DNA of 64,000 nt from Isoetes taiwanensis (Eukaryota > Streptophyta > Lycopodiopsida > Isoetales > Isoetaceae): assembly GCA_021234155.1 (NCBI GenBank), contig JAJEKV010000111.1, positions 1,928,968 to 1,992,967 of the forward strand, read 5' to 3'. The notes beneath the pieces are model-generated. The model was not told the DNA's origin. It did no database searches and saw only the letters and a program-made list of their open reading frames with translations. Both the position numbers and the translations under genes were made by a program. Shown here piece after piece: positions 25,521 through 60,220 of this stretch; the first letter of the stretch is position 1, and each line of letters starts with the position of its first letter.

Positions 25521-25559
25521 CCTAGGATGGGTCCTAAGATACAACTAATTGGCCGATAG
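25516..25559 (+). repeat. 44-bp direct repeat, copy 2
   Basis: Identical to 24,082-24,125. Its start overlaps the last five bases of the hairpin-ended module, so the breakpoint of that module and of this duplication coincide closely. Confidence 0.9.
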
Positions 25560-29896: not shown

Positions 29897-30387
29897 GCTA
29901 CTTTCAGTGGAAATTTATAACGAGAGGCCTCCACCTTTATACATTCTCGAAAAGCACTCAACCACTAGCTTGTCCTTAGAACAAATTGACAAATGACGTA
30001 GTTCGACTTAAAAACTGAATAGAGAATTAAAGTGCACATATCTAGAAACTAGAAGATCTTAGTCAATTCCATGCACTCGCTAGAAAGCCATATCCACATG
30101 CGACAATCCTCAAAATCAAGGTGGCCTACAACCCAATCAAGGAGGGATTCGACACATCGGCTAAAAATATAGCAGTAATATAGAACCATTCAGATCGGGC
30201 CTTATGAGCCTTACAAAATATGAACATATATGAACATAAATGGTATAGCCACTATGGATCGCCTAACACAAAGAAATAAAGAGCCTTGTTTTGGCTTGTT
30301 GTAGAAGAAAAAGGATAAGATGAGAAAACCAGAAGAATGAGACCGCCTGCATCGTAGAGAGACATGCAAAAGTCAAGTGCTTGATGT

Positions 30388-30755
30388 AGAATATGTAGCA
30401 AAATAACGTTCTAGGGGATTTGATATAGATATAATTCTTGAAATCATAGACCATATCCCTAAAAACAATTCAATGGGTTATTATAAAAAACATAGATTTA
30501 AGATAAAAAATAGTCCCTCAATTAAAGCAGTCTTATTAGCATTGAGTTATTTTGGAGAGGTTCCCATTTCATATTCTAAAAGCTTGATTTAAACCGATAG
30601 AGGCCTCGATTACCATCAAAAAAAACTCAACATCTTAAAATCATAGGCCCCCTAATCATAATTGAGCATAATCAAAACAGAGGTCCGAGGCTCCAACATG
30701 AAGGGCCGCCTGATTGACAATCCGAATGCCAGGTGCACCTCGCTTAGAATATGTA
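30388..30755 (+). repeat. Third, decayed copy of the SINE-like repeat
   Basis: It has the blocks 'gaatatgtagcaaaataacg', 'gatttgatatagat', 'catagatttaagataaaaaa', 'aagcagtcttattagcattg' and 'aggtgcacc..cttagaatat'. These are in the same order as the tandem pair at 8,385-9,230. The tRNA-like boxes are eroded here. It ends about 210 bases before the LTR retrotransposon. Confidence 0.65.
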
Positions 30756-30963
30756 GAAGAGATGAAAACTAGAGACCGTGGAGACCCTAATTAAAGCAAA
30801 TGCAATGGAATGCCCATCACCTGATCAACCAAAAATTCAACATCTTGAACTTAAATTGAAGTATGCTACATCCGTAATGAAGGAGACAACTAATGCCACA
30901 TCGAAATGAAGGAAAGCAAACCGGATCTTCCCCGATACCTTGAACCACGAACCTGAATCGAGT

Positions 30964-30967
30964 TCAT
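30964..30967. repeat. Target-site duplication, left (TCAT)
   Basis: TCAT immediately precedes the 5' LTR, and TCAT immediately follows the 3' LTR at 42,623-42,626. Four bases can match by chance, but both copies fall exactly at LTR ends that were defined independently by the TG and CA termini. Confidence 0.55.
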
Positions 30968-32746: not shown

Positions 32747-32747
32747 T

Positions 32748-32761
32748 GCTGGTATCGAGCA
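32748..32761 (+). promoter_or_regulatory. Primer-binding site
   Basis: 'gctggtatcgagca' starts two bases inside the LTR end. The typical plant initiator-methionine tRNA site is TGGTATCAGAGC, and here two bases are missing in the middle (ATCGAGC for ATCAGAGC). Position and sequence together support the assignment. Confidence 0.7.
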
Positions 32762-40760: not shown

Positions 40761-40815
40761 CCAAGGTGGGGAGAACCACGATGCTGCGGACAGCATCATT
40801 TCAAGGTGGGGAGAA
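40761..40815 (+). promoter_or_regulatory. Duplicated polypurine tract flanking a hairpin
   Basis: 'caaggtggggagaa' occurs at 40,762-40,775 and again at 40,802-40,815. The second copy directly abuts the 3' LTR start TGTGACG, as a plus-strand priming tract should. Between them lies a perfect 7-bp stem (40,780-40,786 with 40,791-40,797) with loop CGGA. Confidence 0.8.
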
Positions 40816-42622
40816 TGTGACGTTCCAGCACAGTATACGCTCCCAGGACGTATATTGTACTGCCACGTCACGCGTACACGCCACCCCGACTGACGTGTAC
40901 GCCAACGTGTAGCCAAGTGGGTAGCCCCTAGGGGGCAACTTGCTAAGAATGTGCATTAGTATTAATGTGCACATTTTCCAATGTACACATTAATGTGGGC
41001 ACACATTTCCATGTGGCCACTTGATGCCAAGTGGGCCATACCCATAGGTGCAATTAATTAATGCACATTTTCCAATGTACATTCATTAATGTGCACACAT
41101 TTCCATGTGAGCACATTTGGGTGCACACATTTCCACGTGGGGCACATTTGGCCACCTAGCCCTTAAAGGCAAGGGGCCTTTTCCCAATTATCCCACATGC
41201 CTAAAGGGGATAATTGGAAACCCTAGCCACCCCTTGTCTATTTAAGTAGGAGAACCCTAACTTGCCCATTTTCGTTTCTAGGGTTTTAGAGCTCCGTTTT
41301 GGCTGCCTCAAGAGCCAAAACCGCCTCCCAGAACTGTCCCTGAGAGAACTGCATCATTAGTTTTCCTTGATTCGAGCATTTCAGCAGGATGGTCGAAGTT
41401 CGTGTCGAGGAGGAACTCAAGGATCGGGGTATTTAGGCAATTTAGTAGTCTAAACCCCATTTCAGCCATCGAATCAGTAGGTTTAGCCTCTTAAATTGCC
41501 CATAGCAGCCCTCTAGAACTCTAGATAGCAGATTCTAACTAAAGAACCTAACTCTATGATATAGATTAGATCTTGTTCTTTAGTTCTTCCGTGATGTATA
41601 TGGATGATGTATCTCTGTGGAACTCCTTGTATTGGGAAGGGGGGTAGAGACCTAAAGCTTGGTAGTAGATGCTCCTAGATTAGCCTCTCTAGCACACTAT
41701 AGATGCGGCCTGCGTACAATAGCCCGCCTGTGTTGTGTTCTTAGGGGTCAGACCGGTTGATAAGGGTGGTCGTGTCCATAGCGGTTGCTCTCTCTCGGAT
41801 GTAAAGTCTACCCGAGAGCACTGCAGACTAAGCTTAATACTCGTGGATCAGCGTGCACCCCGAAAGTATGAGTTCGACACCGCTGGGGATAAGAAGCCGT
41901 GGCTGGCGGCGGGTGCCACCGGGTTTCAAAATGAGGTCCCCGTGGTGCGTGGTTGTGCCGGGCACGAGGGGTCGGACCTCGGTCGTGGTGGTAGTTCCCC
42001 CAAGTGGGTTAAAGTCGATAGTACCGACGCTTGGTGTCCTCTAGTCCGCCTGCTATGGCATTGATCATCCGGGTGGGAGAGCAACCTCCCTACCGCCTCA
42101 TCGGTCCGGGGGAGATGTAACCCGCTATAGCCCCTTTGGCTATGATCCCGCAAGCAGTTACGGCCCAACCCCGGTTCTTCGACCTATCCGCAAAGTGTAC
42201 GCAGGAGGGCGGATGGAGTGGACAACCCTAAGCCATGTTCATGTGCCGCCCAAATCCATTGCCATGAATTCGCCTCGCAATGAACTCGAGACCCAAGCCG
42301 CCACCATCCCTTTGAGTCTGAGCCTTGGGTAGGATTCCCTATGTGATGTGCTGATCTTTGTCTATGCAGATATGTGGAGGGCCATCCTTCGTGATGGTCA
42401 TATGATATTGATGTATGTGCTACTGACATGTATGTTTACGCTTCCGCAGCTAGGTAGGCCCTGAGGGAGACGGGGTGCAATGACCCTTCCACTCTTCCCA
42501 CTGGAACCCGTCACGGTTGCAGTGTCATGTGGAGGGCCCTGTATTAGCATGGAGCTGGTATGGGGGATGAACTCCTGTTTGTATACGGTGAGGGCACCGT
42601 ATACGAGTAGGGGACGTCACAT
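40816..42622 (+). repeat. 3' LTR
   Basis: Starts TGTGACGTTCC and ends ACGTCACA. It aligns over its whole length with 30,968-32,746, including the minisatellite section (about 40,940-41,150) and the block 'gatatagattagatcttgtt'. The first 100 bases are the most different between the two copies. Confidence 0.9.
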
Positions 42623-42626
42623 CATC
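42623..42626. repeat. Target-site duplication, right (TCAT)
   Basis: Matches 30,964-30,967 and follows directly after the CA end of the 3' LTR. Confidence 0.55.
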
Positions 42627-43269
42627 CAATCTCGACATCTTGTGCTGATACTTGATAAGCCACAAAACGATTCTCTGCATGCTGAAAACTCCTGGAGACA
42701 TTGAAGAAAACCATGAGTATGTGATAAGAACTTTCAAGTCGTAAACAAGTAACAAGCACGATGAACTGAAGAAAATGATGGTATCTTGCTTATGCAATCC
42801 ACGCATATCGCACTTCATCCAAAAGCCATCTAAAGATGGGACCTACAACCCGGGCTTAGAACGCTAGCAAAATCTGAACTATCATAGCTTCATCAGCTTG
42901 CAATAGGTCACAAAGGAGACTCGATCCCTGGAGGAATTTGATCCAGCCCGATCATGATGGCGTGTCAAAAGAAACCAAGGCCAGCCTGGAATCAAGAAAT
43001 TCAAGCTCGACTACATGATCTTAGGAGAAACGGCTGGCTTGCTTTCGACCGAGCTAGTTGAGAAGACGGACAAAATCCCTAAAAAAGGAATGATGCAATA
43101 ATATTCAACAAAAAACCAGTTGTATCTATGAAAACCCTATGGCAAGCTTGAACCAAAACGTGATCAAATGAAAACCAGAACATAGATGCGCTGATGGAGC
43201 ACGGCAGGAGCACGGCAGAATCGGTATAGTGAGAAAAAACACTCAAAGCACAATGAAGGGAAGAGAAGC
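42627..43269. other. No recognisable gene
   Basis: Purine-rich sequence resembling the composition of 25-29 kb, which fits with both being parts of the same disrupted element. No frame resembles a protein family. Confidence 0.4.
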
Positions 43270-43428
43270 AAACTTGTGGAGCCAGAAACAAGAAGAATGA
43301 AAAAGAGCTCAAGAGAACGCCGATGACTGGAAATGAAGAAGGAGGCGATATAAATAGGAGATGCAAGGCATGACGTCCCCATCCAAGGAATGTCGATTCT
43401 ATTGCTACCGCAATAGAATCGTGGCATT
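43270..43428 (+). repeat. 159-bp hairpin-ended module, copy 2
   Basis: Same length as 25,362-25,520 and nearly identical to it, with the stem at 43,395-43,405 and 43,410-43,420. It lies 17.9 kb from copy 1 in the same orientation, with the LTR retrotransposon between them. Confidence 0.85.
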
Positions 43429-43455
43429 AGAAAAATCTCAAAGATAATATTTGAA

Positions 43456-43813
43456 ACACGCTAAGCGTGTTCTATGCTAACCTTAGCCTTGAATATGAGT
43501 ACACGCTCGGCGTGCATTCAGCAGAGAGGGAGAAAAAAAAATTGTACAGATAGATAAGTAAATAGATAAAGGCCAGGCAATTATTTACACGCTTGCCTGG
43601 CCTTTATCTATTTACTTATCTATCTGTACAGGTTTTGTTTTCTCCCTCTCTGCTGAATGCATGCCGAGCGTGTATAGTTTTTCCTATATAGTAGTTTACA
43701 CGCTGAGCGTGCAAACAATTTTATCCCTAGTTTCAACTTTTAAGTTAAACACGCCGTGCGTGTCTCTTAGTTTCTAAGTTTATAAATAAATTAAATATAA
43801 CACGCCAGGCGTG
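43456..43813. repeat. Cluster of CACGCYNRGCGTG palindromes
   Basis: Palindromes or near-palindromes occur at 43,456-43,470 (ACACGCTAAGCGTGT), 43,501-43,515, 43,659-43,673, 43,698-43,712 (ACACGCTGAGCGTGC), 43,749-43,763 and 43,801-43,813 (CACGCCAGGCGTG). The base pair flanking the centre changes between T-A and C-G while the symmetry is largely kept. Surrounding sequence differs between copies, so this is not a simple tandem duplication. Confidence 0.9.
43501..43673. repeat. Long foldback: 80-bp inverted repeat
   Basis: Arm 1 is 43,501-43,580 and arm 2 is 43,593-43,673, with a 12-base loop. The inner 38 bases of each arm are a perfect match (including 'gatagataagtaaatagat'). The outer part has a slippage in an A-run and one or two changes. 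Each arm ends in a copy of the CACGC-type palindrome. Confidence 0.92.
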
Positions 43814-43846
43814 AATACTGATACTCCGCTCACTTCCTATTGATAG

Positions 43847-44511
43847 ATGTCAACTTACATTAATCACCCGGTTGGTGACGAAGATGCATTGGAATTACAT
43901 TTGGGGCAGCAATCACACGCCCGGCTCGGTTTAGGCTCAAAGCTTCAAATCGGTTGAACCGCGCAGAAACCGGGGCCCGGGTTGAGCACCGCCTTTGCAA
44001 CCCCCGCAGTACTTGGATCAAGTAATGATGATGGCGGCCAGAGCGCAGGCAATTATAAATCGGGCTCGAGGCCCTTGCAATCTCAAGGAGGCTGGCCCTT
44101 ATTCGATCACTTCGATCATGCAAAGACATGCATTGATCGAGAGTGAATCTCGCAAACCGGCGGCTTCGAGATTCAAAATGAGGAGCTGCGTTTCTTAGTG
44201 GCTAGCCTCTATGCCCTGATGCCCCAACACGAACCACTACCGCAGCGGCATATACGATGCAATGGCTCAACCAATGGAACCACTATCGCGTAAAGATAAT
44301 CGATGCATTGGAGATGGTTCAACCAATGGAGCAGGAGGAGGAGCAGGCGTGGGAGGTGGAGCTAGAGCCTGGGGTTTTTGCTGGGGTTTTACCTGATCTA
44401 TTCACTATGCCCTGGAATGGAAATGGGAGATCGATAGCCCAGCCTACTCAAGAGGGCGGGCTTGAAACAAAGAGGTCCGGGATTTTGTCCGTCTATCCAG
44501 ATTATCCGTGA
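43847..44511 (+). pseudogene. Degenerate coding sequence, unknown
   Basis: From an ATG at 43,847 one frame reads MSTYINHPVGDEDALELHLG and stops at about 43,960. Further pieces in shifted frames read LGSSNDDGGQSAGNYKSGSR and IQNEELRFLVASLYALMPQH, which have ordinary protein-like composition. The last open frame (44,257-44,511) ends in SVYPDYP. The family is not recognised. It begins about 35 bases after the last palindrome of the cluster. Confidence 0.3.
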
Positions 44512-45216
44512 TTATATACAATTGTAAACTTTTTCCAATGAATACAACAAATTTTGTCTACTTCTATATTTCTACAATGTAATACATGTTACATACCTTT
44601 TTTAAGCAGTTTCTTGGCCATGCAACAAATGTTCCAACACTTTCTCCAACCGTATCCCCACCGGGGTGTCTGCGAGGTAAAGCTTCATCCATAGCGCAAA
44701 GAAGAATCATCAGAGTTTCTGGACATACTTATCTCCGAGCGAATTCCATGACAAGCTTTAAATGATCGATGGAGTCGATCTTGCATAATCCTACTTTCCT
44801 TTTCTGATTTGTAGTTAACATGAAACATTCATCTTTGACACTGCAGACAATTGCTATTCAGACACCTACCAATCAGATTAATGTTCAAGCTATAGGAATG
44901 AGATGAGTACCAGAATTCTGTAACCATTCTTGAGAAGCTGATTCGAGTTCTCGAAATCACAGGCGCTATGGAAACTCAGGCGGTCGGGAAAAATTCGAGT
45001 TAGAAGAAAGCTTAGGTTAATTACATTTAGGCGGGATAAATGTAATCAATGCAAGAATACGGTAGATTGCTTTTTAAAAACTCAATGAAAGAAGTCGGCG
45101 GACGGGTTTTTTTTTTTTATTTGAAAGTGAATCTTCGTCATTATTATTTTTATATGTCAAGAATATTTCGAAACTGCATATTGTGTTTTCTTGAAATTCA
45201 AATTTCTCTTGTACAG
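44512..45216. other. No clear gene
   Basis: AT-rich sequence with several acceptor-like and donor-like sites. A T-run of about ten bases lies near 45,110. An upstream exon of the following gene could lie here, but I cannot define one. Confidence 0.35.
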
Positions 45217-45300
45217 GTAGAAAAAACTATTTCTTGCCAGCTATTTCTCGAGCAGCTCGAGCGCGTATCCGAGCGACCTTCCGACTCTGTTACTCCGGAG

Positions 45301-46971
45301 ATGTCTTCTAAAACGAATCGAGGTCGAGGCGGACGGGGCCGAGGAAGCGGTGGAAGAGGAATCTCAAAACCCGGCACTTCTCAAGTTTCAGAGGACGTTG
45401 ATCATACCCCTCCTATTCAAGGTATTTAACTTGCCACAGAATACACACTGTGTAGAGAGTATTATACTTGCATGAATTTGAGTTATTTCCTTGCCTTCAG
45501 TTATTATGCTATGCATGAATTTGAGTTATTATGCTTTGCATGAATTTTAAGTATTACCATCAGTTAATGCTCTGATTGTCCGTTTTGTAGAACATAATTT
45601 TGATCTGTTTTATAGAATATAACAATGTTAGACAGTTGGAGATAGCAATGTTCAATGAGGTTAAATAGTGTGAAATATGGATTCATAAAGGTATGTAGCT
45701 TAAAATGTGGATGCAAATTAATTTAGTTTCAAATTCACGCATAGCATGGTCATAATAGGAGATACCAACACGCCAAGCGTGAATTGTACTAATTTAGGTT
45801 TAAATGCACGCCAAGCGTGATCTCTTGTTCTGAAAAGTACTCTAAAAAATGTTCATCTTCTTTTGCAGTGCCCAAGAGGAAGAAAACCCCTAATAATTCG
45901 GGTTCTATTCCTGGCAAGAAACCTAAGGTAGACGACCCAGATGCAGTACCATATGATCTCAACTTAGATGATGAAGGGCCGATTCTTATAGCAACCATTG
46001 ACCCTGCCTGCCCTGAAGAGGAAATGGACGAGGGTGCCGAGTGGTACGTTGACCTTGCCAAGATAAATGGCAAGCTCGACTTAACTCTCTTCTCGAGGAA
46101 AAAGGAAGCAGACAAGATGACCAAACAAGGGATTCTAATCTCTTGTGAGGAAGAGGATGACACCAACTGCAAATTGCTCTTGGAGATTAAATATAAGCAA
46201 AAGAAAGATCTGCTCAGACTTACTCACTGTAGAGCTACTGCATACAAGGATACGTTCATGAGGACAGATGTGAACGGTGAGACATGTTTTAAGTATGGTT
46301 GGCCAACCAATGTAGCAGTTACGCCAATATCTATTTGCCAAGGGGTTACAGCTGTGCGTAGAGGCATGTTCACTAAACCGACACCAAGTCACTATTTGCA
46401 GCAAGCTAGGGAATTAGCTGACTTGAAAGCTTCTAGGAGGGTCCTAGATCTAGGGAAGGATGTTCAACCTGCAGTTGTCGAAGGCATGGAGGCTTCTGTT
46501 TTTGAGAATGAACAGGACAGGATGGCGCAACTAGAGGCCATGAACAAGCTGAATAAATACTCTGACCATTATCCATTGGGTCTTAAGGAAACTTTTGCGA
46601 TCCATGTGAAGTCCCTCATCCGTTCACCAAGCTCCATTTATGTTAGCAGAAGATATGATCCAGCACATGCCATGGAGATTGTTCAGAGCATGATTAGTAA
46701 TCCAGGTCAAATGCCTATGCCAGCGGATGTGTTACCTTGGGATATGATCTTGAACAAGCCTGCTGTGTGGACGAACTTCGAGGAGTTAATGTTAAATGAA
46801 AACATTAAATTCGTCATCATCGACAGGCAGTATTCTGTTGAGGCACAAAAGGCCCTCATCAGGCAGGCAGAACAAACAGGCCAAAGCGTGTTCTACAATC
46901 ACTATGCGTATAGGAGGTGTCGTCTCTTGGATGCCAATACTTCGGGTAAAAGCATGAAAGGGTGTCTATAA
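45301..46971 (+). CDS. Two-exon nuclear-type protein with possible ParB-like domain
   Basis: Exon 1 (45,301-45,421) encodes MSSKTNRGRGGRGRGSGGRG, an arginine-glycine-rich segment, and exon 2 (45,869-46,971) continues in frame as VPKRKKTPNN... with a basic, nuclear-signal-like patch. The total is about 407 residues. An acidic stretch follows near residues 60-90. The region around residues 295-375 contains IYVSRRYDPAHAMEIVQSMI and FVIIDRQYSVEAQKALI. This arrangement is reminiscent of ParB/sulfiredoxin-fold proteins, where a conserved 'GQH' follows a 'vId' strand; here it is DRQYS, so the key residues are not kept. The family call is weak. The intron holds two CACGCCAAGCGTG palindromes. The start is the first ATG of the exon; an upstream in-frame extension to about 45,217 is possible. 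The ending MKGCL looks abrupt, so the gene may be truncated or continue by splicing. Confidence 0.6.
45769..45819. repeat. Two intronic CACGCCAAGCGTG palindromes
   Basis: The copies are at 45,769-45,781 and 45,807-45,819 and are identical. They lie 50-100 bases before the acceptor of exon 2. A related half-site 'ttcacgcatagca' is at about 45,735. Confidence 0.9.
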
Positions 46972-47198
46972 ATGTAGCCCTTTTTGTACATATACATATG
47001 TACCGAATGCACATTTTTGGAATAACTGTCATCATGACCAGCTAGTAACTGCCATGATTAATGGCTATCCACTACTCTGAACCCGCAATTATCGGATTTT
47101 GAAATTCTTTCCCAAATTCTTTCTTGGTTTGCCTCTCGTTCACTATCCCGCCCCTGCCTTCTCTGCTTGGATTCCGATCACGAATTCTTCATCTAGCT

Positions 47199-48405
47199 AT
47201 GGCCCCAAAACGCCTCCAGATGAGTGCTTGCTCATCACCACATCCCAAGCAAGATGCCAGTGCTTTCGGCAGTGGAATTTTACCTCCAAGGAGTTTACGT
47301 TTGGGTTCTGAGGTGATCCAAGCCAAAGACCTCCGTGAGAAACATGCAGAGGCCCACATACCCAACCTAGAGATGGTTATGAACGAGGTATGGGGTGAAG
47401 CTCCAAAAAACAGACGAGGATTCAAGGAAGGGAGAATCCAGAACGCATGGAAAGATGATTTTTTTAAATATTATGAATTGGTTTATGGCAAGAAACAGGT
47501 TACAAACCATTATATTTCAACCTATTTTGCCAGAGCATTTGCTCTTCACTTGAAGGGACGGCTTGTTGATTGGATGGACGTGGCTAGGACCGCCAAAGAT
47601 CTTGCCAAAACCCTCAGTTCAGACGTTACAGAGGACCCTACAACAGGTAAATCCTCAACTATCAAACAGGACATCGTATTGCAGCAGAATATTAGAGCCC
47701 TGGGTTATTCTAGATCAGATGTTGACACAATAAAGCAGTTACTTAAGCATGGGTTGGAGGAGAAAACTAACCTATTGAATGAAGTAGAAGCACTGGAAGA
47801 AAAAAGGAGGGATGCATTGAAGGTCATCACCGGATTGAGGGTAGAAAGGATATTGCTATCCAAGATCCGCAGCAGACTGCCGAAAATAGATGAGACAAAA
47901 CAGAATTTGACAAATTGTCCCGTGATCCTACTGAAATGTTTGTTATGTTCGGAGTGTTGAAGTACAAGTTGGAAGACTTGGTTATGAGTAGACATGATAA
48001 AGAACAACACTCTTCTAAGCTAGAAATTGGTTTGCAGGAAGCAACTAAAGACATTGAAAGGCATGAAATCTCAATTGAACAAGCAAAGGAAAAACTTAAT
48101 TGCATTGAATTGGTTCAGGAAAGGCATTCACATTTTTGGATTTCATGGGGAGAGCAGGACCTATTGTTCTCGCACCGAGGCCCTACCCTGTAGGAGCTAC
48201 TTCTATAGAGCAGTTCATCACATTCAGTTCATGTACCTGTTGTGGCCAAGGCTTTGGCAAAACTGGTTTGTTGCTGCTAGCTCCATGCAGAGATGCTTAT
48301 TGCCTCTTCTGCTTGTGTTATCTGGTCCATGAAAGACAGAATTGCATAAAAGGTTGCATCTGGGATGAGGGCATTCGAATTCAGCTTGGTTTCCCTGCTG
48401 TGAAA
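47199..48405 (+). CDS. Coiled-coil protein with C-terminal cysteine cluster
   Basis: An ATG at 47,199 opens MAPKRLQMSACSSPHPKQDA. A globular part (about residues 45-150, with NAWKDDFFKYYELVYGKKQV) is followed by a heptad-like, charged region (HGLEEKTNLLNEVEALEEKR) that continues after a frame slip near 47,900 as LEIGLQEATKDIERHEISIE. After a second slip near 48,130, a cysteine cluster reads SCTCCGQGFGKTGLLLLAPC followed by RDAYCLFCLCYLVHERQNC. The cluster recalls zinc-binding RING-like modules (C-x2-C, then a C..H-type core) but lacks the regular spacing. A donor 'gtatgc' follows VKG near 48,406. The protein is probably nuclear or cytosolic; its function is unknown. The slips may be real or sequencing faults. 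Confidence 0.45.
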
Positions 48406-48539
48406 GGTATGCATTGCTCTCAACTAATTTAAACTTATATTTCTCTTCATTCATATTTGTTATTGTAATCTGCATAGTTCTACATGTATGGCTTTCAAAG
48501 GCATTGCTATTCCTTGTACATGTATAACTTTTTAGTGTA

Positions 48540-48930
48540 CATCCGTAAAGCGTAGGTACATAGGCATATATTTGCTTGTTTATTGATGCTTTTATTTTTG
48601 AGCTTGGACTGCAGTTGTATCAGTTGTACATGTCTCTAATGGAGTCTACATCTGCAAATAGATGTACATGCATTTATCTTTAGAGTGCATCTGTAGATGG
48701 ATTCATAAGTATGTGCATTTTTTACATATATGTGCTTTTTTTTGGGCATAGATCTACATTCCCTAACCGATACACGGGTACATCTGGGTACATCAGTGTA
48801 CATCTGGGTACATTGATGTACCTTTATGTACATTGAGGAACATGTACATGTACATTTGGCTATAGTTAAATGTAGTTACTTACATTTGGTACATTCTATG
48901 TACATGAAATGTACATGCTTGGCAGGATGT
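48540..48930. repeat. TGTACAT array, intronic
   Basis: There are at least ten TGTACAT, GGTACAT or ATGTACA units in about 390 bases, densest at 48,776-48,860 ('ggtacatctgggtacatcag' and similar). The unit is self-complementary at its core (TGTACA). It lies between the cysteine-cluster exon and the next coding piece, so it would be transcribed as intron if the gene model is right. Confidence 0.85.
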
Positions 48931-48989
48931 ACCATATATTTCTCATTAGTTCTTGCTTTTCATGTTCTTTTATGTCTATTGAAATTTAG

Positions 48990-51900
48990 ATCATTTGTTT
49001 GTTTGCGGATGATGAGGTCGTTCCTATCCCGTATGCGGCTTTAATGGCTGATGTTCTTGAGCCATCTGCATCGACTCTCTTTACTGATTTTACTCGAGCA
49101 TAATAAGCGCATCGAATCAGACCCTCTACCTTCCAGCTCCGCATCACCAATGACATTTTCGATTACGAATAATAGAACAATGCGCAATGATTGCACCGCT
49201 TTCGAACATGGCAAAGTGAAGTTGAGGAAATTGAGAGGATGGCACTTGAGAAAGCTAAAGCGGTGCGTGCGAGCCTTCAATGATCGGCTGCAATGTAAAA
49301 ATCTTTCATCACCAAGTGCTAAATTAGTAATTGGAGAAGCTAAGAAAGATTCAAACACGTCTCAAAGATCATCTGCGGTCCCGCCTTACCCTTTACGTAA
49401 GAAGCTACAAAGGACACAGATCCAGATTTTAACCCGGAGATACCGGGGAAGAGGAAGCCGAGTTGGTAGTTGAGTCCACTCCAAAGAGGAGGCAAAAGAA
49501 TGCTGGTGATGGCACTCCAAAAGGAAAAAAAGCGTGCAAAATCTCCAAAGAACAAAAAAATGTCCTCCGAAAAGAAAATCTCCGTGCAAAAAAGTGCCAC
49601 CACCACCTAGAAAGAGGTATGTCCAAGATGAACTAATTTTGTTAAACATCTCAGATTTATGGTAATTAACCACCTTTTTTTTGTACATAGGACACGATCA
49701 CAGTCGTGAAGGAAGCCGATCCCGATCCTTCCGAAGCCGAAACCTAAGAGGAAGAGGATCTACAAGCAAATATTGATGTGATAACAAATAAGGTGCAAAA
49801 AGCCCCTCGAAGATGTTTGAAACAGTGATGAATTTACAAGGTGAGTAATATACAATTGATTACAATAGATATATTCTTTTGCTAATCTTTTTGTTTCCTT
49901 TGTACAGCTTTAGTGAACCGACCGAAAAGGTTGGTTCCATTCACTCCTTATAGGGACCGGCCCTCCTAAGCCCGCACCCTCTATCTTTCAAAGTGATGTT
50001 GACGAAGTTCTCACTGGAAGTTTGGACTTGACCTCTAAGATGGTAGATGTCTATGGGAGGTAGGCTAGCATTTCAACATATTTATGTTATTTCATTCCCT
50101 AAGTCACTCATCTTATGTATTAATATGTAATCTGGATTTGTGTGCGTGTACCTTTGTAGCGCCTTCCATCCGATTGGAAACACAAGTTTTTACGGTTCGA
50201 CCGGGACACCTTCCGCAATTTTGTGAATTCCCTCAAGAACAGTGGGGCGGATGCACGTAACACTAACATAAAAAGGAAGGGTGGATGGCATTTTGATTGC
50301 AAGATGCCAATACATATTTGTTCCAATTCTCGCAAGGCCCAAATGTGGCATTGGCAATACTTGTGCTTGCTGGTCCAATGAAAAGCTCTTTTCCATCTAT
50401 AGCTAGCCCAAGTATACGAGATCCTCTCTCCTCAAAAAGGCTATGTACCCGATGCTAAAGTGGTCCGTAGTAAGTATGAGTTTCGTTTTGTTTTTATGAT
50501 TTGATTATTCTCAATTTGCAATTTCTTATGCTTGATTTATTCTCACATTGCAATTTTGCGTGTTTCATAAGCTTGTGATCAATAACATGATGCTCGGATC
50601 CAACAGCTTAAACCATGGTAGGAAGAACTTTGATGCTCCCCGTGTTCGTCCTAAAATGCCGTAAACTAGTACCAAAGAACCCTTGCATGTACATTGTGGC
50701 TTACATGCACAAATTCATAGATGCCGTGGTTGATGCAATGTAAAGCTCCATTTTTGTAAGTAGAACATGTTATTTTCCTATTAGTTATTTGTTGGTATAG
50801 TCCTCTAATACTTGTGCACCATGCAGATGACACCCAGTTGGTTCACTGATGCCTATGCCAAGTCACGGAGGGATCATCTAATGGAGGCATTAATTGTAGA
50901 AGGCGAGATGAATATACAAGCAGTTGTTCCTACACAGGGTAGATAGTCCCTTTGACTTGTTTGTAAATTACAGTTTTGTATGAGCCATGCTCCGAGCTTC
51001 TTTGTACTCAATAAGTAATGAAAAAATTAATTTATTTGTCTCACTTACACCTGTGCAAATAACAATCGTGTAATTATCAATGTGTTTTCTCAATTGTGTG
51101 TCTGAAATGTAATTATAAATTGTGAATCTCAAGTGTTTTCTTTTGACGACAGTGAATCATCTAATTCAGGAGAAAGCTCGTTATCTTTGACTTAAATTGC
51201 GTGTTGGGCAAGAGTGTGCACAAGAATGAAAATATTAACTCAAGATACCAACAGGATCCGAAAAGATGAGCTTCAATTTAATATAGGAAATGTGTTTTTT
51301 TTGCAGGCGGGTTAGCATCATCAAGTAGCATTTGTAAGAGAAGGGTTTGATGTTGCCATCCGGTCTTCACTCACTTCTAAAAATCTTCAACCAATTGTGG
51401 AACATATTTGTGATGCTTTTTCCATAAAGTGAAGTTTGTTTACAGCCGAGGAGCAGTGTTGGACTCTCGCCACACAAACACCCTACAACCTCAAAAAGGG
51501 GTTGTTTGTGAAACCATTAGTCGTGGTATGGAAAGAGTACCCAGAAAGTACTATGGACATACAGATTTGACGACGACGACGAAGATACAAATCCACTTTG
51601 AATCCTATAGGAAGCTACATATGTCCTTTCTCTTGACACCGATATTAGCTAGTGATGATTGCTTGTCATGGAGCTCATTCCATGGCTTAATGGATTCAAA
51701 ATGGCCGAAGATGGTATAGTTTATGTGAAAGAGCATCCAATGACTAATGCAGCAGATGGCATATCAGAGCAGGTGGAACAGATTTTGCCGGGCAAACTAT
51801 GGCAAAGAAACTTGGGTGCTCTCGCCCTAAATTTAGTCAATATACCGAGCAAAGGAATGGAGAAACTGCCATCATGTTATTGGCCTCTCGACTGGCCCAT

Positions 51901-52487
51901 TGTTGGTACAGACTTTGACTGATGTACAAATTCAAATGTTATGAATATATGTATCAAAGTTTTTGTTCATTGCACTTGAGTACTCTATTCTTACTGTCTT
52001 TCTTATTGGTACAATTATGAGTGTGTATACATAATTAAGTGATCTTCATTTGCTTTGTAGATGAATGGACTGAAACACAAAAGACTATTAAGAAACTAAG
52101 AGATAGAGTTCTGCTGCACCCAGAGGTAATACAAACCAACACAAGCTGCAAGTACATAGGGTTGGGGACCGATTATCGCCTCTATACTGCTGTTCCTGAA
52201 CTTTGGGAAAAGGTTGAGCAAATTGAAAATTATGAGGAACGAGCAACCATGAAAGGTATATTGGCAGCAAATCACTTGTTGCACAACCCTTGGGGAAGGC
52301 ACGTGTCTGGAAGATGCAAAGCTATGTAGGATGGAAAGGTTTGCCGCTGGCACGTGCTATAGAAACCGCATGGACTATTTGCTTTAGAGGATATCTCTTG
52401 ACCTCTCTACTGGCTGGAAGACATGATGCAATAGTCATAAGATATCAGGCTCCTACTGACATTTTGAAGCTTGGTCATGAATTATGA
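48990..52487 (+). CDS. Downstream exons of an unrecognised multi-exon gene
   Basis: Several protein-like pieces follow with splice-like borders. These are DDEVVPIPYAALMADVLEPS (49,007 on), a lysine/proline-rich piece ending in KKVPPPPRKR (to about 49,617), LVNRPKRLVPFTPYRDR with SDVDEVLTGSLDLTSKMVDV (about 49,905-50,060), and LPSDWKHKFLRFDRDTFRNF with GGWHFDCKMPIHI (50,160-50,380). Then come MTPSWFTDAYAKSRRDHLME (50,827 on), DGIVYVKEHPMTNAADGISE (51,713-51,922), and DEWTETQKTIKKLRDRVLLH with KARVWKMQSYVGWKGLPLAR, ending at 52,487. No known domain is apparent. It may be the 3' part of the gene that starts at 47,199, in the same strand and with similar style. Frame slips occur within several pieces, so the joined protein cannot be given with confidence. 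Confidence 0.4.
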
Positions 52488-52674
52488 GCCATGCTCATTT
52501 TTGGGTGTGTTATATTTATGTCCACAATATAAATATATCAACCATTTGTACATGAAAACCTGTCCATTTCTTATCTTTGCCATGACTGAAACCATTTTAG
52601 TGTTTATGCAATTCAACTTTCTTGTGTTCAATTCTAATCAACTTACACTTAACAAATTTTTATAAGATTTTTGA

Positions 52675-52740
52675 ATGTACAACGGATGTACATAAGATGT
52701 ACATCTGTTGTACATCTTATGTACATTGATGTACATAATG
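52675..52740. repeat. TGTACAT array between convergent genes
   Basis: 'gatgtacataagatgtacat' and 'gttgtacatcttatgtacat' form an imperfect inverted pair around 52,687-52,727. It lies between the end of the plus-strand gene (52,487) and the end of the minus-strand transposase-like gene (52,917). Confidence 0.85.
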
Positions 52741-52916
52741 CACTTCAAGTAGTCCAGTTCTTCAGGTTCTTATAACAAAGTATTACAATATTTCGAGAAA
52801 GTACTACGATCGACTTAGTCCATGTCATCTACAATTCTTTGGAAGTTGTGATAACAATGTCTCATGGACTTCATCCGGCAAGTGAAATGTCGCGGCTTGC
52901 CCCTTCAAATTGTGTT

Positions 52917-55912
52917 TTACTTTCTTGAATGGGATTCAACCCCAATCCACAGATTCTGCGGTACCAAAACATTCTTAGTAGGAAGCGGTTTATACTTATT
53001 GTGGCAGCCGATTAGTTCATAATATTGTCCTTCAATGACACTAGTGCCGCCAGAGTATTCATTTCCATAGTCATCAATTGAATCTTCTTCCAATGCATGC
53101 TTTTCCCTGGTGCACATGAGAACATAGTATGAAACACCTTCCACATTGTCTGGTGCTGCAAAAGACACAAATACATCTGAAACAGCTACAGTGTCATCTA
53201 AACCAGCCTCGTCCTCTGCATACAAAACTTCCACATCATTTTCAGCTTCAACACGAGAGGCAATATGATCTGTGGGCTCCAAACTTTTTAGAGACCATTC
53301 TCCACAATGTTTAATGTTCTCACAATTCAACCAATTGAAGTTAATGCAAGCATCACAAAAGCACGAGAGTGGTCTGCATAGCAACTTTGTTGGATCTGGC
53401 TGGGTTTATAGTTGACACGTAATGTATCTCTTTGAGTACCGTAAAGTCTTGCAATTGAATGCTTGCTGCTGTTCACATCTGCTTTTCCAACCTCCCAAAA
53501 CACCCTTTCACAATCCGATTCCTTGGCCCTTAAAAACGCAAAAGCCGTTTTCGCCACACATCGGCATGCCATTTTGTTTTCTCTCTGCCGCTCTCAAGCC
53601 ACAACTTTGCTATACCAGCCTTTCGCCATCATGTGTGCCTTTCCCATGGCGGATCCAAAGAAATTCCATATCACTCGAATTTTATTTTCAACATGGTATC
53701 TACAGATTCCATACCATGCACGTCTTGATTTGAATTGAGATGCACAACCATCCGACCACACATAATGAAGGTTTATGTGTCCACCTCCATTATTCTTAAG
53801 CCACCCCAAATGTAATTTAAAACCATGTTGCACAAAATGAGTGTCATGCTTCCCGTCATCCAAAACATAGAAATGCACTTTGTTTTTTAAGCTTACCTTC
53901 TATTTTCATCATTGAAATATGGACCAAAATACTAATTTGATCAGATTCCAATGCTCGGATTGCACTTCTGTCCCGGTTTCAATGTGTAGTTCTCTGCAAA
54001 GTCAACAAATGCACAACACACTATTATCCGGAGTTTCTCAACACATCTTTTAAACTGCTTGCTCTCTGCCGGTTTGTAAAGTTATGATCTCAGAAACTTA
54101 GCAAGCTGATTTTTCATGTTCTTTAACAAAAACAGATGCTTTGTCATTCGATCAACTAATCTAAGCCTTACGGATGTACCTTTTTGGATGGCTCATTGAC
54201 ATATGCATATACTTGCTACCACATTCTCAATTCCATCTTCCTCGTTTGGACAGATGTCTAATTTCTTCACTCCACATTCATCACATTAAGCCTTTGATGC
54301 ATTTTTTAGTTTATGCCATTCATCCGTCACATATTTCTCGCAAACTGTTGACCTCCACAAGATACTAACATTATCAAAAGTTTTCTTGTTTGCTTGACAT
54401 ACTCCATTGTTTTCTTTGGGATGCATGCATTACTACAGCCCCGCAAGTGCAATTAACATGTAGGGATCTCCTCATATCATTGAAGGCCTTTACTCGCATG
54501 CCGATCGCTTGCTCATGTTTGACACAACAACATGTGTTTCTCTCCTTCAATTTCCTTATGCAATCGGGTTTGGATACTTTCGACCGGCCGTAAGGCTTAA
54601 TTTTGGTATCGGGATTACGATATACAAACCGTTGATAAAGCTCGGTGCAATAACAAAAGCATTAAAGACCATGTTAGCAAAATGATGTCGGCAACCGGAT
54701 GCCAAAAGAGTATTGAACTATACTATTGTACAATTAATGTATGTTCTATGTACATAAAATGTCCATCCAACAGTTCCAATCGATCTGTTCTCGTACATCT
54801 AATGTACATCTAATGTCTGTGAAGACATCTAATGTACGATAACAGTTCCAATGAACATCCAATGTACATCCAATGTACATCCAATGTACATCTAATTAAT
54901 GTTCCAATATTAGTACATCACATTAATGTTACAATATTAGTACAACTAATGTACATATGTCCGATTTGTTTGGCTTCATTACCGAAAAGTACACTAAAAT
55001 GTAGAATGATGTAATTTTGATATTCAAGTACATGTAAATGCAAAATGGACATGTAACAAGATAATGGATGTACATCTAAAAAGTACCTAATAGCACATCA
55101 ACGCAAGATTTCGCTACTATGTAAACAATGTAAAATGCAATACATTTCATGAGAACCATGTGTATTCATTAACAGTCACTTTCGAAACGTAACTAGAATG
55201 TACGAATAAAAGTCATGAAAGAATTTTGGAAGAAAACATAAACTCCAAGACTGAATTGATTCAATTACAAGAGCAAACCCGTGAGATATCAAGGTATTGT
55301 ATTGCTTGTGTTCTCCTCTTCATGACATCTCTAACCTTTGGTGAAACTTTGGTATTGTCAAGCCAAAATTCACGAACCTCGACATTTGATTGAATCATCG
55401 ATTCTATTTGATCTTGGCATCCTTCCCGCCAAAGCCCATACATTTGCTCCACTTAATGACATTATCTTCCTTCTTGCTGCAGCTTTGGATAAATTTCTTG
55501 GTCAGTATCTTTAGCAATTTTGAAGAAACATTCTTGTTTATATCTCCTTTTTTCCAACAATCATTGATAACAAAGGAATGTTTTGCAGCCAATTTATCTT
55601 TGCTATTAGCGGACTTTTACTTCTTGAAGTCCATCTTTCAAGTTTCGATCATTGATTTCATAACAATAACTTCGGAAGGATTTCCAATTACGGTTCGAAA
55701 ACAGAAAAAAAGCCATCTTGCAACAAAACGCGATCACAAAAACTAATCTTTGATCTCGACGGCGCGTTTGCCGAAAGAATCGAGGATGCAATCCACCGAA
55801 CATCAACACGCTTCTTTATTTGTTTTGTGGCATAACACTGGCCAATGTCGGCATACTTGCGCTTAGAACCATCACTTCCATTGGAATTCTCACCCTCCAT
55901 GAACAGATTGAA
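52917..55912 (-). pseudogene. Transposase-like gene of the DF(A/S)ENY / WSDG family
   Basis: Reading down the minus strand, the N-terminal part at 55,912-55,606 contains SKRKYADIGQCYATKQIKKR. Then 55,452-55,261 contains NVEVREFWLDNTKVSPKVRD. After a gap filled by TGTACAT repeats comes CDECGVKKLDICPNEEDG (about 54,270), then VDFAENY (about 54,000) and HYVWSDGCASQFKSRRAWYG with NFFGSAMGKAH (53,740-53,630). The C-terminal domain is an uninterrupted 155 codons, with LSCFCDACINFNWLNCENIK and an acidic stretch (53,384-52,917). The ordered motifs match a repeated eukaryotic protein family I know from animal and early land-plant genomes, with an RNase H-like, transposase-style core (DFxENY, then WSDG, then HGKGxxDG). 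The last motif is eroded here. Frame changes break the catalytic part. It sits on the opposite strand, inside the block of plus-strand genes. Confidence 0.55.
54720..55080. repeat. TGTACAT array inside the transposase-like gene
   Basis: There are about a dozen ATGTACAT or close variants, including four in a row as 'catccaatgtacatccaatg' (54,850-54,895) and several 'tagtacatcacattaatgtt' units. It separates the N-terminal and central coding pieces of the minus-strand gene, so it probably lies in an intron. Confidence 0.85.
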
Positions 55913-56229
55913 ATTGATTTGTATTTCTTGTAGATTCAATTGGCATGTGTTTGCTTCTGGAATTCCTTCGGTGTTCGTCCTGTGAAAGGGGGGAATTTCG
56001 GAAAGGGAGGGACGGATCCATTCAATTTGGTTCGGTGGTTCGGTGGTTAACCAAGAATTTCGGGGGGAATGTCAGGGATGATCTTGCAATCATTGCATAT
56101 CTGACACAAAACGACAAACCATAGTATCTTGATGTACATCTAAAATGTACCCCAAAAAAGCACAAATTCGTCCTTCAATTCAGTACGATGTACGTACACC
56201 CTTTCATGCTTTTACCCCTTCACCTGCAG
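55913..56229. other. Spacer between divergent coding blocks
   Basis: No protein-like frame. Two more 'gatgtac' units occur at about 56,130-56,195. The end supplies a clean acceptor 'cacctgcag' for the next plus-strand exon. Confidence 0.4.
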
Positions 56230-58647
56230 ATTTGGCTGAGATTAGTGCAACTTTGAATGAAATGGGGAAGAAATTTCTATACAAAAGGTAATTGACTGCA
56301 TTAGGATGTTAGCACTTTAATATTCACGCCAGACGTTCATTCAAATGAAACCAATTCACGCCAGGCGTGATTTCAAATGAAACCAAATCACGCCAGGCGT
56401 GCTTTCAAATCAAACCAATTCCGCCGGTGAAAATGTTAAAAAGCTGCGCTGGCGTGAATTGTTTGATTTGAAAGCACGCTGGCGTGATTTGGTTTCATTT
56501 GAAATCACGCTGGCGTGAATTCAACCGATTCAGCACGCTGGCGTGAATTGCATTGGTATTTAATTCATTTCCGCGCCCGGTGCTTTGAGGATTGATCTTT
56601 TCTATTGAAATCGCGCCCGGCGTGTTTCTTGTCTCGATCTTGATTCAATGCACGTACTTTTGGCGTCCATACATGGAGCAAGCTAGCATACGCCCGTCAA
56701 CAGTGGGTGGAATATGGCTGCCTATTACCCACCAGACAGGGCGGGTCAAAGTCTGAGGCTTTCAAGCTGCTGGAGCGGACTCTTTCACAGACAATTATAT
56801 AGGAGAAGAAGAAAACTGCAAGAAAATCAAAGAAAAAAGGTGGTGATGACATTGCAGATCCTTCTGAAAGCTCATCTAGCAAGTCAGGCCCAACAGACTC
56901 GCATAAGATTGTGTTTGGTAAGGAGGCAGTATGGCAAAAGTGGAATGAATTCTGGGACGCTTATGCACAAGGGAAGCTGCCGGATACTATGGGTAGGGTG
57001 CCTCCTGTTGATGTAAGCATCTTTGACTTGAATGTGACAGAGATGAGAAAGACTCAGGGGCTAGACGACGCTGAGACCATTTGGGTTTTAGAAGGAAGTC
57101 TTATACAAGAAGAGTGCTTTCACTAAGGATAGGATGTCCTTCATTGAGTGCTGCAGCCATGTGAAGGATGTACGTACAATGAAGTCAGCTGTAGGAGCTG
57201 AGTTACAAAGGCTATCGGGGGATGTGGCATTATCTGAAATTGGATTGCTGGACAAATACAAGGTCAGTAATGATGACATCAAGAAGTTTGTATTCTGGTC
57301 AAAGGACTTCCTAAAGAATTGGAAGGCTAAAAATACAAAACATAAGGAGACTCTACCCCCTAAGGTACTGGCCGAGTTGAGAAGAAAAGTGGCCCTTGTG
57401 AAGAAGATTACTGGAGAAGAAGACACTGTCCAGTATTCAGTCTCCATTGGGTACAAAGGTCTCTTGCCAGAATCAACTTCTTGCCTTAAAAATATATCAC
57501 TCTTTGTGTTGGACAACAGGGGTGGGAGAGGAGATATGGGCATGAACCAGAAGGACTACAGCAGCTTCTTTACCAGCTGTATAGGATTGACAACTGAGAG
57601 GTCCTTCACTATTGTCATCGTTTGTTCTTCAGATGAGTCGCATCTGCATGCACTATCCGCTGCTCATGATCTGGAGTGCCTCAAAGTTATTAGGGAGGGA
57701 TGCCTAATATATGATGTTAAGGATAATGAGTACAAAAATGAAGCGAAGATGGCACATGTGATCTTTATTATGATAGCCATCTTTGTCGGACGAGGAATAT
57801 GATATTGCTAAGGCCAAGGGTGACAATAGCGTTGCATGGGAATGTTTTCTTCTAGATGATCCGACTTAAGAACTATATTCTATCATACGGATCGGATTAG
57901 TCGAAGCAGGGATGAGTCGAAGAGGATGAGGATCGGGACCCCCTCCTAAGTGGGGAAATCAAGTACGAGCTACAAACTAAGGAGAAGGGCCCCTTAAATA
58001 AAAATGGATTTCCCCCGTCTATGGCTGCTTACCTCGTCGAGGCATTTGCTTCAATTGATACAACCTGCTTGGAGCTTCATATTGGAGGTTATATTGCCCG
58101 AGAGGCTCTTATGGGTGTTATAAGATGTCACTGCTTTGTGAGTGATGAGCAGGCCAAAGACTTTCTTGAACCATTCCTCATGCATGTGCTTGCCAAATCT
58201 CCTAAAGGCCCTTATGGCAACCTGAAATCATCAGCAATCAAAAGTCTCGTAGACTTGTCCAATTCGAAAGTGGGCGATGGTTCTGGTGAGGGAACTAGTA
58301 ATACGCAGCCTGATAAGGAAAGCAATGAACAAATAGCTGCTAAACTGGCTGCTCAAAGTAATGTGATCGCGGCGTATCCTTGCCTCCCTTCAGGGTGATG
58401 CAAGCAACAATAGAGTAGATTCACAGGTTAACAATGAATTAATTGACAAGGCAACCAAAACTGAAGGCAACCAAGGCGGCTCTAGTGATTCACAGGTTTG
58501 CCAAATCAATAGTAAAATAATGTCAGTTGTGAAGGACGCAGCGGAACTAATAGAAAATAACAATTCTAACAGTCAGAAGAGCACGAAGATTAAGGGTGGC
58601 GAAGGGGAGAATGACGCCGACGACGGCAGCGAAACTGAAGATGATAG
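56230..58647 (+). CDS. Multi-exon protein, weakly DNA-methyltransferase-like
   Basis: A short exon (56,230-56,287) reads LAEISATLNEMGKKFLYKR, with clean acceptor and donor. A long block from about 56,702 follows. It contains GGSKSEAFKLLERTLSQ, KIVFGKEAVWQKWNEFWDAY, DMxKTQGL-like text (TEMRKTQGLDDAETIWVLEG), and LSEIGLLDKYKVSNDDIKKF. From 58,021 it contains FASIDTTCLELHIGGYIARE with CFVSDEQAKDFLEPFL, and finally an acidic, serine-rich tail that reads open to a donor at 58,647. The segment 'LELHIGGYIAREALM....CFVSDEQAKDFLEPF' resembles the end of N4/N6 DNA methylases (an FxGxGTT-like loop followed by E.D...). The catalytic D/N-PP-Y is not visible, so this is speculative. Stops or slips are at about 56,795, 57,120, 57,790 and 58,390. 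Confidence 0.35.
56325..56624. repeat. Palindrome cluster with 70-bp inverted repeat in an intron
   Basis: Forward copies CACGCCAGGCGTG lie at 56,357-56,369 and 56,389-56,401, with a variant at 56,325. Reverse-type copies, each one base short (CACGCTGGCGTG), lie at 56,475-56,486, 56,506-56,517 and 56,534-56,545. Variants are at about 56,446 and 56,612. Arms 56,351-56,420 and 56,457-56,522 are reverse complements, joined by 'tttcaaatgaaaccaaat' spacers. The whole lies in the intron between 56,287 and about 56,702. Confidence 0.92.
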
Positions 58648-58858
58648 GTATGGCCTTGCCCACGAAATTGCGCCACGCGTGATTTAATTTGTATTACCTT
58701 TGAATTAAATCGCGCCAGGCGTGCTTTGATTATTTTTCGTTGTCAAACTAAATCACGCCGAGAGCGATTTGGTTAAGACTAACTCAAATCACGCTTGGCG
58801 CGTTTGTATTGTTTGTGTTATCATATCTTGCTGACCAGATACATGTTTGATGTTTCAG
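58648..58858. repeat. Four palindrome variants in an intron
   Basis: The copies are GCGCCACGCGTGA at 58,670-58,682, CGCGCCAGGCGTG at 58,711-58,723, CACGCCGAGAGCG at 58,754-58,766 and CACGCTTGGCGCG at 58,790-58,802. They are spaced about 40 bases apart and each is joined to 'aaat' or 'attt' flanks. The intron donor 'gtatgg' and acceptor 'tgtttcag' are both good. Confidence 0.88.
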
Positions 58859-59481
58859 CTTGCATTGCGTTTCTAAGAAGGTTGTGGTGTTCGACCTAAA
58901 CGGAGTCCTTTGCAAGACTTTTCCGAAAAATAAAGTGGCTAGAGATCAGTTTCATCAGACACCAGTAGAATCAAACACCAAGTGGATCTATCCGCGGCCG
59001 CACTTGAAGGAGATGCTAGATGAGGCATTCAGGTTATTTCGAGTTGGTATTTGGTCATCCATGGAACTAAGGAACATCAAGGATACTTTGGAGGCACTGG
59101 GGGGAATGCGTAGACATTGGTTGACCTTTTGGGATCAGAACAAATGTGTGAAGTTCACTAATCCCAAGGACTATCTTCATCAAACACTTGAGTAACATGA
59201 TGGACGAACTTGGTATCGAGAATAAGGATGATATAATCATAGTGGATGATGATGCTCTCAAATGCTTCTACAATCAAACGTAGGCCCTGAATCCACCATC
59301 TTACAATCCAAAAAACTTTGCGACTGATGATTTTCTGGTGAAGCTTGTGTCTATTATGCATAATTTGGCTATGGGGATGACGGTAGATGAAGTGTTAGAT
59401 TCATACCCAGAACTGGATAGAACGGCTGACATGGAACCACACCTTGTTAAATACGTGGAAAAACATGGATTGATCCCTTAA
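58859..59481 (+). CDS. FCP1/NIF-type HAD phosphatase-like exon
   Basis: The exon continues in phase from 58,647 (D-D-S-LHCVSKK...). It carries VVVFDLNGVLCKTF, the first HAD motif, with D-L-N in place of the usual D-x-D seen in active phosphatases; plant NIF-like proteins with DLNG are known. Motif II-like IWSSMELRNIKDTLEAL and the third motif KDDIIIVDDDALKCFYN follow, then NPPSYNPKNFATDDFLVKLV and an end at 59,481 (EKHGLIP). One frame slip at about 59,190 and one in-frame TAG at about 59,281 interrupt it. If active it would dephosphorylate phosphoserine proteins in the nucleus, but the D-to-N change argues against catalysis. It appears to be the last exon of the same gene as the methyltransferase-like block, making an odd fusion, unless the junction is a mis-reading. 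Confidence 0.65.
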
Positions 59482-60220
59482 TGTTTTATTGGAATATATG
59501 ATATTTTTGTATGATATTTGTGCCATGTATCGATAATTTTGAGTCTGGAATTGCCTCGCAAATAATGCAATCTGTTATTATCAAACCTAATATTATCATC
59601 TATCGAGCAAGCAATTTTGGTCTCATCTATGTTAGCAACTTGCTCTTCATTTTTGCATATTTCAATTCGCATATGAAACGTCACACGTGAATCGCAAGCT
59701 TATGTTATTTTTGAAGTCCAAAAAAAAAGATTAAGAAAAACAAAAACCCCCTAGAAGACAACAGCAGGTTGGCGTGATTTTGGAGTTGACATAATCCCAA
59801 TTTAATTGGATGATGGTTTATGCCCTTATCAATAATAGAACCATGCAACTCCTATCCTATTAATAAGCAGGCCAAGCTGGCACACACATCAAGAAGGCTG
59901 ACAAAGGTAACCACATCTGCTTCAGACATTTTCTCAGCTGCATTTCATCAAAAAGGTTAAGAGCTTCCCTTCCATGTTCATTCGAGACATATCCTATAAA
60001 TCACATGAGCATGCGGGTATTTGTGGTTCCCAATACCAATAAGGCTAGAACATGCACAAGACATAAATACATGTATTATGTTTGCTGTTATTCCTTCTAT
60101 TTGCATTTCTTTCGATAGTTGACGGGCAAATTTTTCAAAGCACCATCAATGACAAAATTTTCATTACCATCATCAATATAAATAGATATTAAAATGGAAT
60201 TCCATGGTATAACATCTCTC
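59482..60220. other. Intergenic
   Basis: No protein-like frame. A last half-palindrome 'gttggcgtgatttt' is at about 59,768. Beyond it the repeat motifs stop, so this may be close to the right limit of the palindrome-bearing block. Confidence 0.4.

Follow-up and report, generated by a model that had tools for sequence, protein, structure and literature searches.

A 13-bp palindrome, CACGCYNRGCGTG, is scattered through a DNA transposon of the lycophyte Isoetes taiwanensis that was identified in a 64-kb stretch of contig JAJEKV010000111.1 (hereafter the window; positions are counted from its first nucleotide). The 13-mers are probably binding sites of a symmetric dimer encoded by the transposon itself, as predicted from the sequence, and are spread through the non-coding DNA of the element. 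The half-site of this dimer would be CRCGCY, two 5-bp arms lying 3 bp apart. The binder would be most likely a fusion protein with RGG, DndB/ParB-like and NIF (NLI-interacting-factor-like) phosphatase segments, whose exons surround the palindrome arrays, and binding would keep the promoter and introns of the element transcribable or unsilenced, in the manner of the VANC proteins considered below. Symmetric dimer recognition is proposed because the arm spacing is fixed, the sites have a non-coding placement and the arms change symmetrically between two subfamilies of the transposon. On these grounds a dimeric DNA-binding factor appears the best supported of the three roles suggested in the initial annotation of the window, the others being a terminal or subterminal repeat of a mobile element and an RNA hairpin.

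The genome searched is the window's own, a single genome of 1.658 Gb in 1110 contigs. When up to two mismatches are allowed the window holds 19 matches to CACGCYNRGCGTG (8 exact, 6 with one mismatch and 5 with two), compared to a mean of 2.05 and a maximum of 6 in shuffled sequence. The approximately 18 copies first noticed are thus real; 17 of the 19 matches lie in the part of the window where they had been reported, the others being at 21472 and 23455. The exact motif occurs 4640 times in the genome while its reversed control is found 33 times, which places the genome-wide count above background. The control arm CTCGC is barely enriched (66 versus 42 genome-wide). The shuffle, reversed and CTCGC controls exclude chance or base composition as the cause of the clustering.

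The arms joined by any three nucleotides, CACGCNNNGCGTG, are found 5106 times genome-wide versus 98 for the control, and the centre has the form Y-N-R in 4640 of them (91%), a strong rule of the motif. Among arm pairs with spacings of 0 to 15 in 11 loci of the family, 123 of 126 have exactly N3. The flanks of the motif lean to AAW/WTT. The two positions beside the centre had been thought to change together, a sign of selection for symmetry. They are symmetric in five of the eight exact copies of the window, and genome-wide the pairs C.G (2137) and T.A (806) account for 2943 of the 4640 sites (63%), 54% being expected under independence. Their joint change is therefore weak, strict covariation is not supported and Y-N-R remains the strong rule; selection for symmetry finds its support in the arm change between subfamilies rather than in the inner positions.

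The native host element has ~12.2 kb (12,246 bp) and extends over window positions 18962-59818, split by two nested insertions. All 19 motif matches are in the native element, with none in the 28,611 bp of nested DNA or in the 23,143 bp outside. Its parts are as follows.

18962..24086, no strand assigned: left part of the DNA transposon, with a left-end remnant and the counterpart of the DUF7869 transposase region that copy C930 carries on its minus strand
18965-18977, no strand assigned: left terminal inverted repeat, reduced to TTGGGATTATGTC, its outer part lost beside a poly-A run
24087..43423, no strand assigned: nested insertion 1, 19.3 kb long and flanked by the target duplication GCATT, without motif matches
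43424..46943, plus strand: middle part of the host element, with the upstream cluster, the MPSY open reading frame (ORF), exon A, intron 1 and the start of the ParB/DndB-like exon
46944..56217, no strand assigned: nested insertion 2, 9.3 kb long with GGGTAAAAGCATGAAAGGGTGT as its 22-bp inverted ends and CTTC as target duplication, without motif matches
56218..59818, plus strand: right part of the host element, with the end of the ParB/DndB-like exon, intron 2, mid, intron 3, the NIF exon and the right repeat
58859..59481, plus strand: NIF phosphatase exon, Pfam PF03031 (E=2.9e-8), frame broken in the window
59788..59818, minus strand: right terminal inverted repeat, of the 31-bp repeat family

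The DNA of the left part is 85-92% identical to five other copies, three of which read to 18962, and five copies pass directly from window position 24086 to 43424, i.e. without insertion 1. Position 43.4 kb was rejected as the left end of the element; a nested insertion ends there. Both ends are seen in copy C930, which has a 31-bp inverted repeat, AACCATCATYCAATTAAATTGGGATTATGTC, and a 4-bp duplication, GTTA. Such target duplications, judged by eye, are present in all five copies with both ends read (GTTA, ATAA, AGTT, CAAA and ATGA), and the element ends begin AACCATC. The 31-bp repeat has 1446 and 1467 matches on the two strands genome-wide with at most one mismatch, none for the control, and among the matches listed (to contig C90) six end pairs are 12.1-12.8 kb apart. 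A mobile element is hence the carrier of the palindromes, as was suspected, but these are not its terminal or subterminal repeats; the latter were discarded as the principal explanation since the ends lie elsewhere and consist of a different repeat.

The palindromes are found in four clusters of the host element.

43457..43813, no strand assigned: upstream cluster, six palindromes at 43457, 43502, 43660, 43699, 43750 and 43801
45422..45868, plus strand: intron 1, palindromes at 45769 and 45807, a decayed copy at 45736, GT..AG ends
56288..56665, plus strand: intron 2, palindromes at 56325, 56357 and 56389 (32-bp period) and at 56612, shortened forms at 56473-56550
58648..58858, plus strand: intron 3, variants at 58669, 58711, 58754 and 58790, GT..AG ends

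The six upstream sites precede the start codon of the MPSY-type ORF. The placement of the other clusters in introns, already proposed, is borne out for introns 1 and 3 by their GT..AG ends; intron 2 has its GT, while the AG acceptor seen in locus L059 is lost in the window. Some intron 3 variants have one CGCGC arm, and the one at 58669 has three mismatches. Two of the five two-mismatch matches, at 21472 (transposase region) and 43916 (MPSY frame), overlap or adjoin coding sequence and could have arisen by chance. A half-site is present at 59763, near the right end. The arrays differ in length from copy to copy; intron 2 holds 2 to 9 exact sites per locus in L055, L057, L058, L059 and C930.

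The transposase of the element is encoded on the minus strand of the left arm in C930 (DUF7869, E=6.5e-39); no frame of 110 or more amino acids is left in the corresponding arm of the window copy. The plus strand codes, in this order, for the MPSY-type small ORF (ATG at 43847 in the window), an RGG-rich exon (exon A, ATG at 45301), the ParB/DndB-like exon, a region termed mid, exon D and the NIF phosphatase. It is likely from the sequence that the accessory exons encode one fusion protein because both junctions checked, between the ParB/DndB-like exon and mid (L059) and between exon D and NIF (C930), are in phase. The accessory gene is broken in the window by the nested insertion, the lost splice acceptor and frameshifts. 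The PF03031 match reaches E=8.2e-14 in the C930 copy. The NIF phosphatase family has the active site DLD where the window copy reads DLNGV; the catalytic activity of this copy may thus be changed or absent. The methyltransferase-like block of the initial annotation receives no support in the profile scans made. Its transposase-like gene, said to be flanked by palindromes on both sides, is presumably in nested insertion 2, which is motif-free, the transposase of the host element itself being on the left arm.

The element exists in a sister subfamily with a T variant at both ends, which has the same gene order as the window family and nearly the same ends. The sister transposase has ~78% DNA identity, and the accessory genes mostly 25-55% amino-acid identity. 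CACGCNNNGCGTG is absent from the three T-type copies first read. The T-type upstream region and introns carry CGCGC-N3-GCGCG, found 3371 times genome-wide versus 202 for the control, which rules out that this subfamily is motif-free. In four T-type copies on large contigs every one of the 42 arm pairs has N3 spacing: 36 are CGCGC/CGCGC and 6 CGCGC/TGCGC, with no CACGC arm. None of these 42 sites overlaps coding matches (10,274 of 36,000 bp in the four loci, a mask that is incomplete because it was built with diverged C-type proteins). The exact-arm CACGC sites in nine loci, eight C-type and L061, are likewise outside coding matches (81 of 81), the latter amounting to 32,239 of 72,402 bp.

Arm type also tends to go with end type. 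Among the first 50 CACGC sites listed, 23 are at most 13 kb inside a C-variant end (one of these also inside a T end), 8 are inside a T end only and 19 have no listed end. For the first 50 CGCGC sites listed the figures are 31 inside a T-variant end, 19 without a listed end and none inside a C end. Copy C930 has a T-variant left end and a C-variant right end, and such mixed ends can explain five of the eight T-end CACGC sites (C35).

These arms bear on who reads the palindromes. The element could have taken up the palindrome of a plant transcription factor to drive its own genes, and the clustering of sites in introns and ahead of the plus-strand gene would be enhancer-like. This explanation is unlikely: CACGC and CGCGC occupy corresponding places in one host, and a host factor is not expected to discriminate between them. 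That two subfamilies within one nucleus differ in their arms makes a binder encoded by the element more likely than one supplied by the host. The transposase, which the element does encode, could alternatively bind the sites for transposition, in the way that CACTA and Ac elements use their subterminal repeats. In five cases among the ends and sites listed, a CGCGCGTGGCGCG site lies 326-345 bp in from a T-variant end; the half-site at 59763 would fit as well. We consider this improbable, since most of the sites read lie mid-element, ahead of the accessory gene or in its introns, and since the two subfamilies have similar ends and transposases but different motifs.

The arrays might also be a neutral by-product: slippage in an ancestor of the element would have produced them, and they would have been copied along with it. 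Slippage is evident in their tandem units of 32 bp and ~42 bp, and most of the 4640 genomic sites are presumably copies by descent. Three observations make a neutral origin of the sites a poor prospect. The six upstream sites have identical arms and spacing despite different flanks, their majority centres in a 27-copy alignment being TAA, TCG, CGA, TGA, CGG and CAG. The sites persist in diverged introns: the ParB-like exon of L055-L058 is 64-75% identical to that of the window and the 13-mers are still in introns 1-3, introns which are diverged yet related because their spacers alone align above the shuffled level in six of six pairs (weakly for C930 versus L055). Finally, divergence at non-CpG positions of the upstream cluster is lower inside the palindromes. 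There, 2.7% of 745 non-CpG C/G cells are off the majority versus 7.3% of 2655 outside, and for all non-CpG cells the values are 2.5% of 1274 and 4.1% of 9179; these figures are supportive and not a test because the 27 copies are interrelated and were drawn from a list ranked by similarity.

A role of the palindromes in transcripts, as RNA hairpins for splicing control or small-RNA production, is very improbable. The predicted folds are more stable than those of shuffled sequences, for pieces of introns 2 and 3 (z -6.5, -6.8 and -5.2), for intron 1 and an upstream piece (z -2.9 and -2.1), and for a near-perfect foldback of 175 nt at 43500-43674 (-142.6 kcal/mol and z -25.8 for 43495-43680). Adjacent palindromes, however, pair of necessity. 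The hairpin option of the initial annotation thus holds in silico but leaves the fixed arm spacing unexplained, as RNA pairing needs no exact N3, together with the sites that are upstream of the gene and not in introns. The palindromes at 43502 and 43660 are the outer ends of the foldback and are not independent because both are arms of this one structure. The inverted match of the foldback recurs in other copies, and folding makes it a possible small-RNA source.

The sites sampled genome-wide are mostly attributable to the transposon. The sample comprises 20 loci with 34 sites, the first CACGCYNRGCGTG matches listed, which are on unplaced contigs and non-random. Ten of the loci are homologous to the window element. 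Six others are more distant relatives on weaker evidence: protein matches for L019 and L026, end sequence for L023, L015 as part of L061, and resemblance to L015 for L016 and L022. In all, 16 of the 20 loci belong to the family or to more distant relatives.

Several observations weigh against an element-encoded dimer with subfamily-specific arms. The remaining four loci of the sample (L017, L020, L021 and L025) are not assignable to the family, and spacing N4 is enriched as well, about twofold (712 versus 319). CpG cells of the upstream cluster decay nearly alike inside and outside the palindromes (5.8% of 799 and 7.1% of only 98, respectively). The association between CACGC and C-variant ends comes from four contigs only. 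Mixed CACGC/CGCGC sites number 866 and 930 genome-wide versus 21 and 22 for the controls; in eight C-type loci they are 16 of 97, about as independent arms predict, and one is found in the T-type copy C38. The diverged relative L026 (C34:159200-160600) has three CACGC sites beside a T-variant end and a NIF gene; these are the other three of the eight T-end CACGC sites and an exception to the link with end type. The distant relative L061 also carries CACGC sites; two of its four sites are mixed and CACGC/CACGC sites are present too. Neither end type nor the relatedness of the transposases simply predicts arm type, which is characteristic of a family yet shows intermediates and exceptions rather than a clean switch.

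The identity of the putative binder meets with similar reservations. The accessory protein, with its DGQHS-type segment, and the palindromes of the element may be compared by analogy to bacterial ParB/parS and DndB. The DndB profile PF14072 scores 13 bits in L055 and L057, below the cut-off of 29 (E ~0.05), and the profile scans made gave no ParB match. DndB is not among the profile matches of the window copy. The four accessory pieces scanned have no NCBIfam match, and Pfam gave nothing above cut-off in the accessory pieces apart from NIF. The accessory proteins showed no recognisable DNA-binding domain, a profile search of the accessory protein against the PDB yielded no convincing match (nothing below E 0.35), and the structure predicted for the ParB/DndB-like exon (window 45871-46941) had a mean confidence score (pLDDT) of 32 and was not used.

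VANDAL elements are defined by a Mutator-like (mudrA) transposase. None was found in the four transposase ORFs scanned here, in which DUF7869 is the sole profile above cut-off. VANC/VANDAL offers nonetheless the closest working analogy, to judge from the accessible text of PMC5735166 and PMC10398659. According to the former, in the Arabidopsis Mutator-like VANDAL21/VANC21 system the motif YAGTATTAY is enriched in the introns and upstream regions of one family, in dynamic tandem repeats, and a further VANDAL family carries other motifs together with a VANC protein of its own. The Isoetes element resembles this system in its family-specific short motif in non-coding tandem arrays; of the 20 loci sampled, 16 could be assigned to the family or to a relative. 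It differs in that the motif is palindromic, the transposase is of the DUF7869 type, the target duplications are of 4 bp and the accessory protein has a NIF domain.

CACTA elements, with the TnpA sites of maize, provide a second parallel. The accessible part of PMC2613891 describes, for CACTA TnpA (Spm/En and soybean Tgmt*), two subfamilies in one genome that differ in motif and transposase. A repeated short motif and an element-encoded DNA-binding protein, a predicted binder in the Isoetes element, are common to both. CACTA elements have CACTA ends and 3-bp duplications, whereas those here are AACCATC ends and 4-bp duplications, and unlike CACTA subterminal repeats the Isoetes sites are internal, with a few nearer the ends. 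Because ends, target duplications and transposase differ, the sequences indicate that the element is by descent neither VANDAL nor CACTA. Sola transposons, as far as the accessible text of PMC10741241 describes them, have 4-bp duplications and variable inverted ends, occur in a moss and in some cases exceed 15 kb. The Isoetes element is alike in its 4-bp target duplication (five of five copies) and its terminal inverted repeats (31 bp). No profile of the Sola-type DDD transposase was among the matches of the transposase scan; an accessory fusion gene and dispersed palindromes set it apart from Sola as described in that part of the source. The element and the motif were not found in the literature searched, whose coverage leaves out most subscription journals and in which DUF7869 is not mentioned, and the accessible portions of Isoetes genome publications name no such element.

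By analogy, the lycophyte DUF7869 lineage may have independently evolved a VANC-like system, in which the fusion protein reads the palindrome and co-diverges with it so that each subfamily activates itself only; we put this forward tentatively, as less probable than its alternatives taken together. The fusion protein would then possibly act on RNA polymerase or chromatin at the promoter and introns. VANC is a well-described case of a transposon escaping silencing by its own motif and protein, the protein binding the motif and removing DNA methylation. If the proposal is correct, a lycophyte would hold a second, unrelated case, with palindromic sites in thousands, and two subfamilies one symmetric base per arm apart would make motif-protein co-divergence testable as a general route of spread. 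The half-sites are short and exact, which lends them to simple in vitro binding tests.

Nested insertion 1 has a 5-bp duplication (GCATT) and two ends that are not inverted copies of each other. It shows a strong skew of A over T at 24-30 kb, and its longest stop-to-stop frame has 147 amino acids. Locus L020 belongs to its repeat family, while L017, L021 and L025 form a common second repeat group in which no similarity to the element was found and which have one CACGCTARGCGTG each. Nested insertion 2, whose 22-bp inverted ends are perfect, interrupts the ParB/DndB-like exon; a Pfam scan of its ORF (53594-53899, minus strand) gave no match. A 252-bp element with the same ends is present at L061 2671-2922.

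The unplaced contigs L061 and L063-L070 have irregular GCGG/CGCC-like insertions relative to other copies, perhaps nanopore errors near CG that escaped correction. Unplaced contigs appear rich in errors around CG, and the number of motifs counted on them may be too low. Beside the element, the open frames at window positions 5368-8070 resemble, from their translation, a nucleobase-ascorbate transporter, which we take to be a probable host gene.

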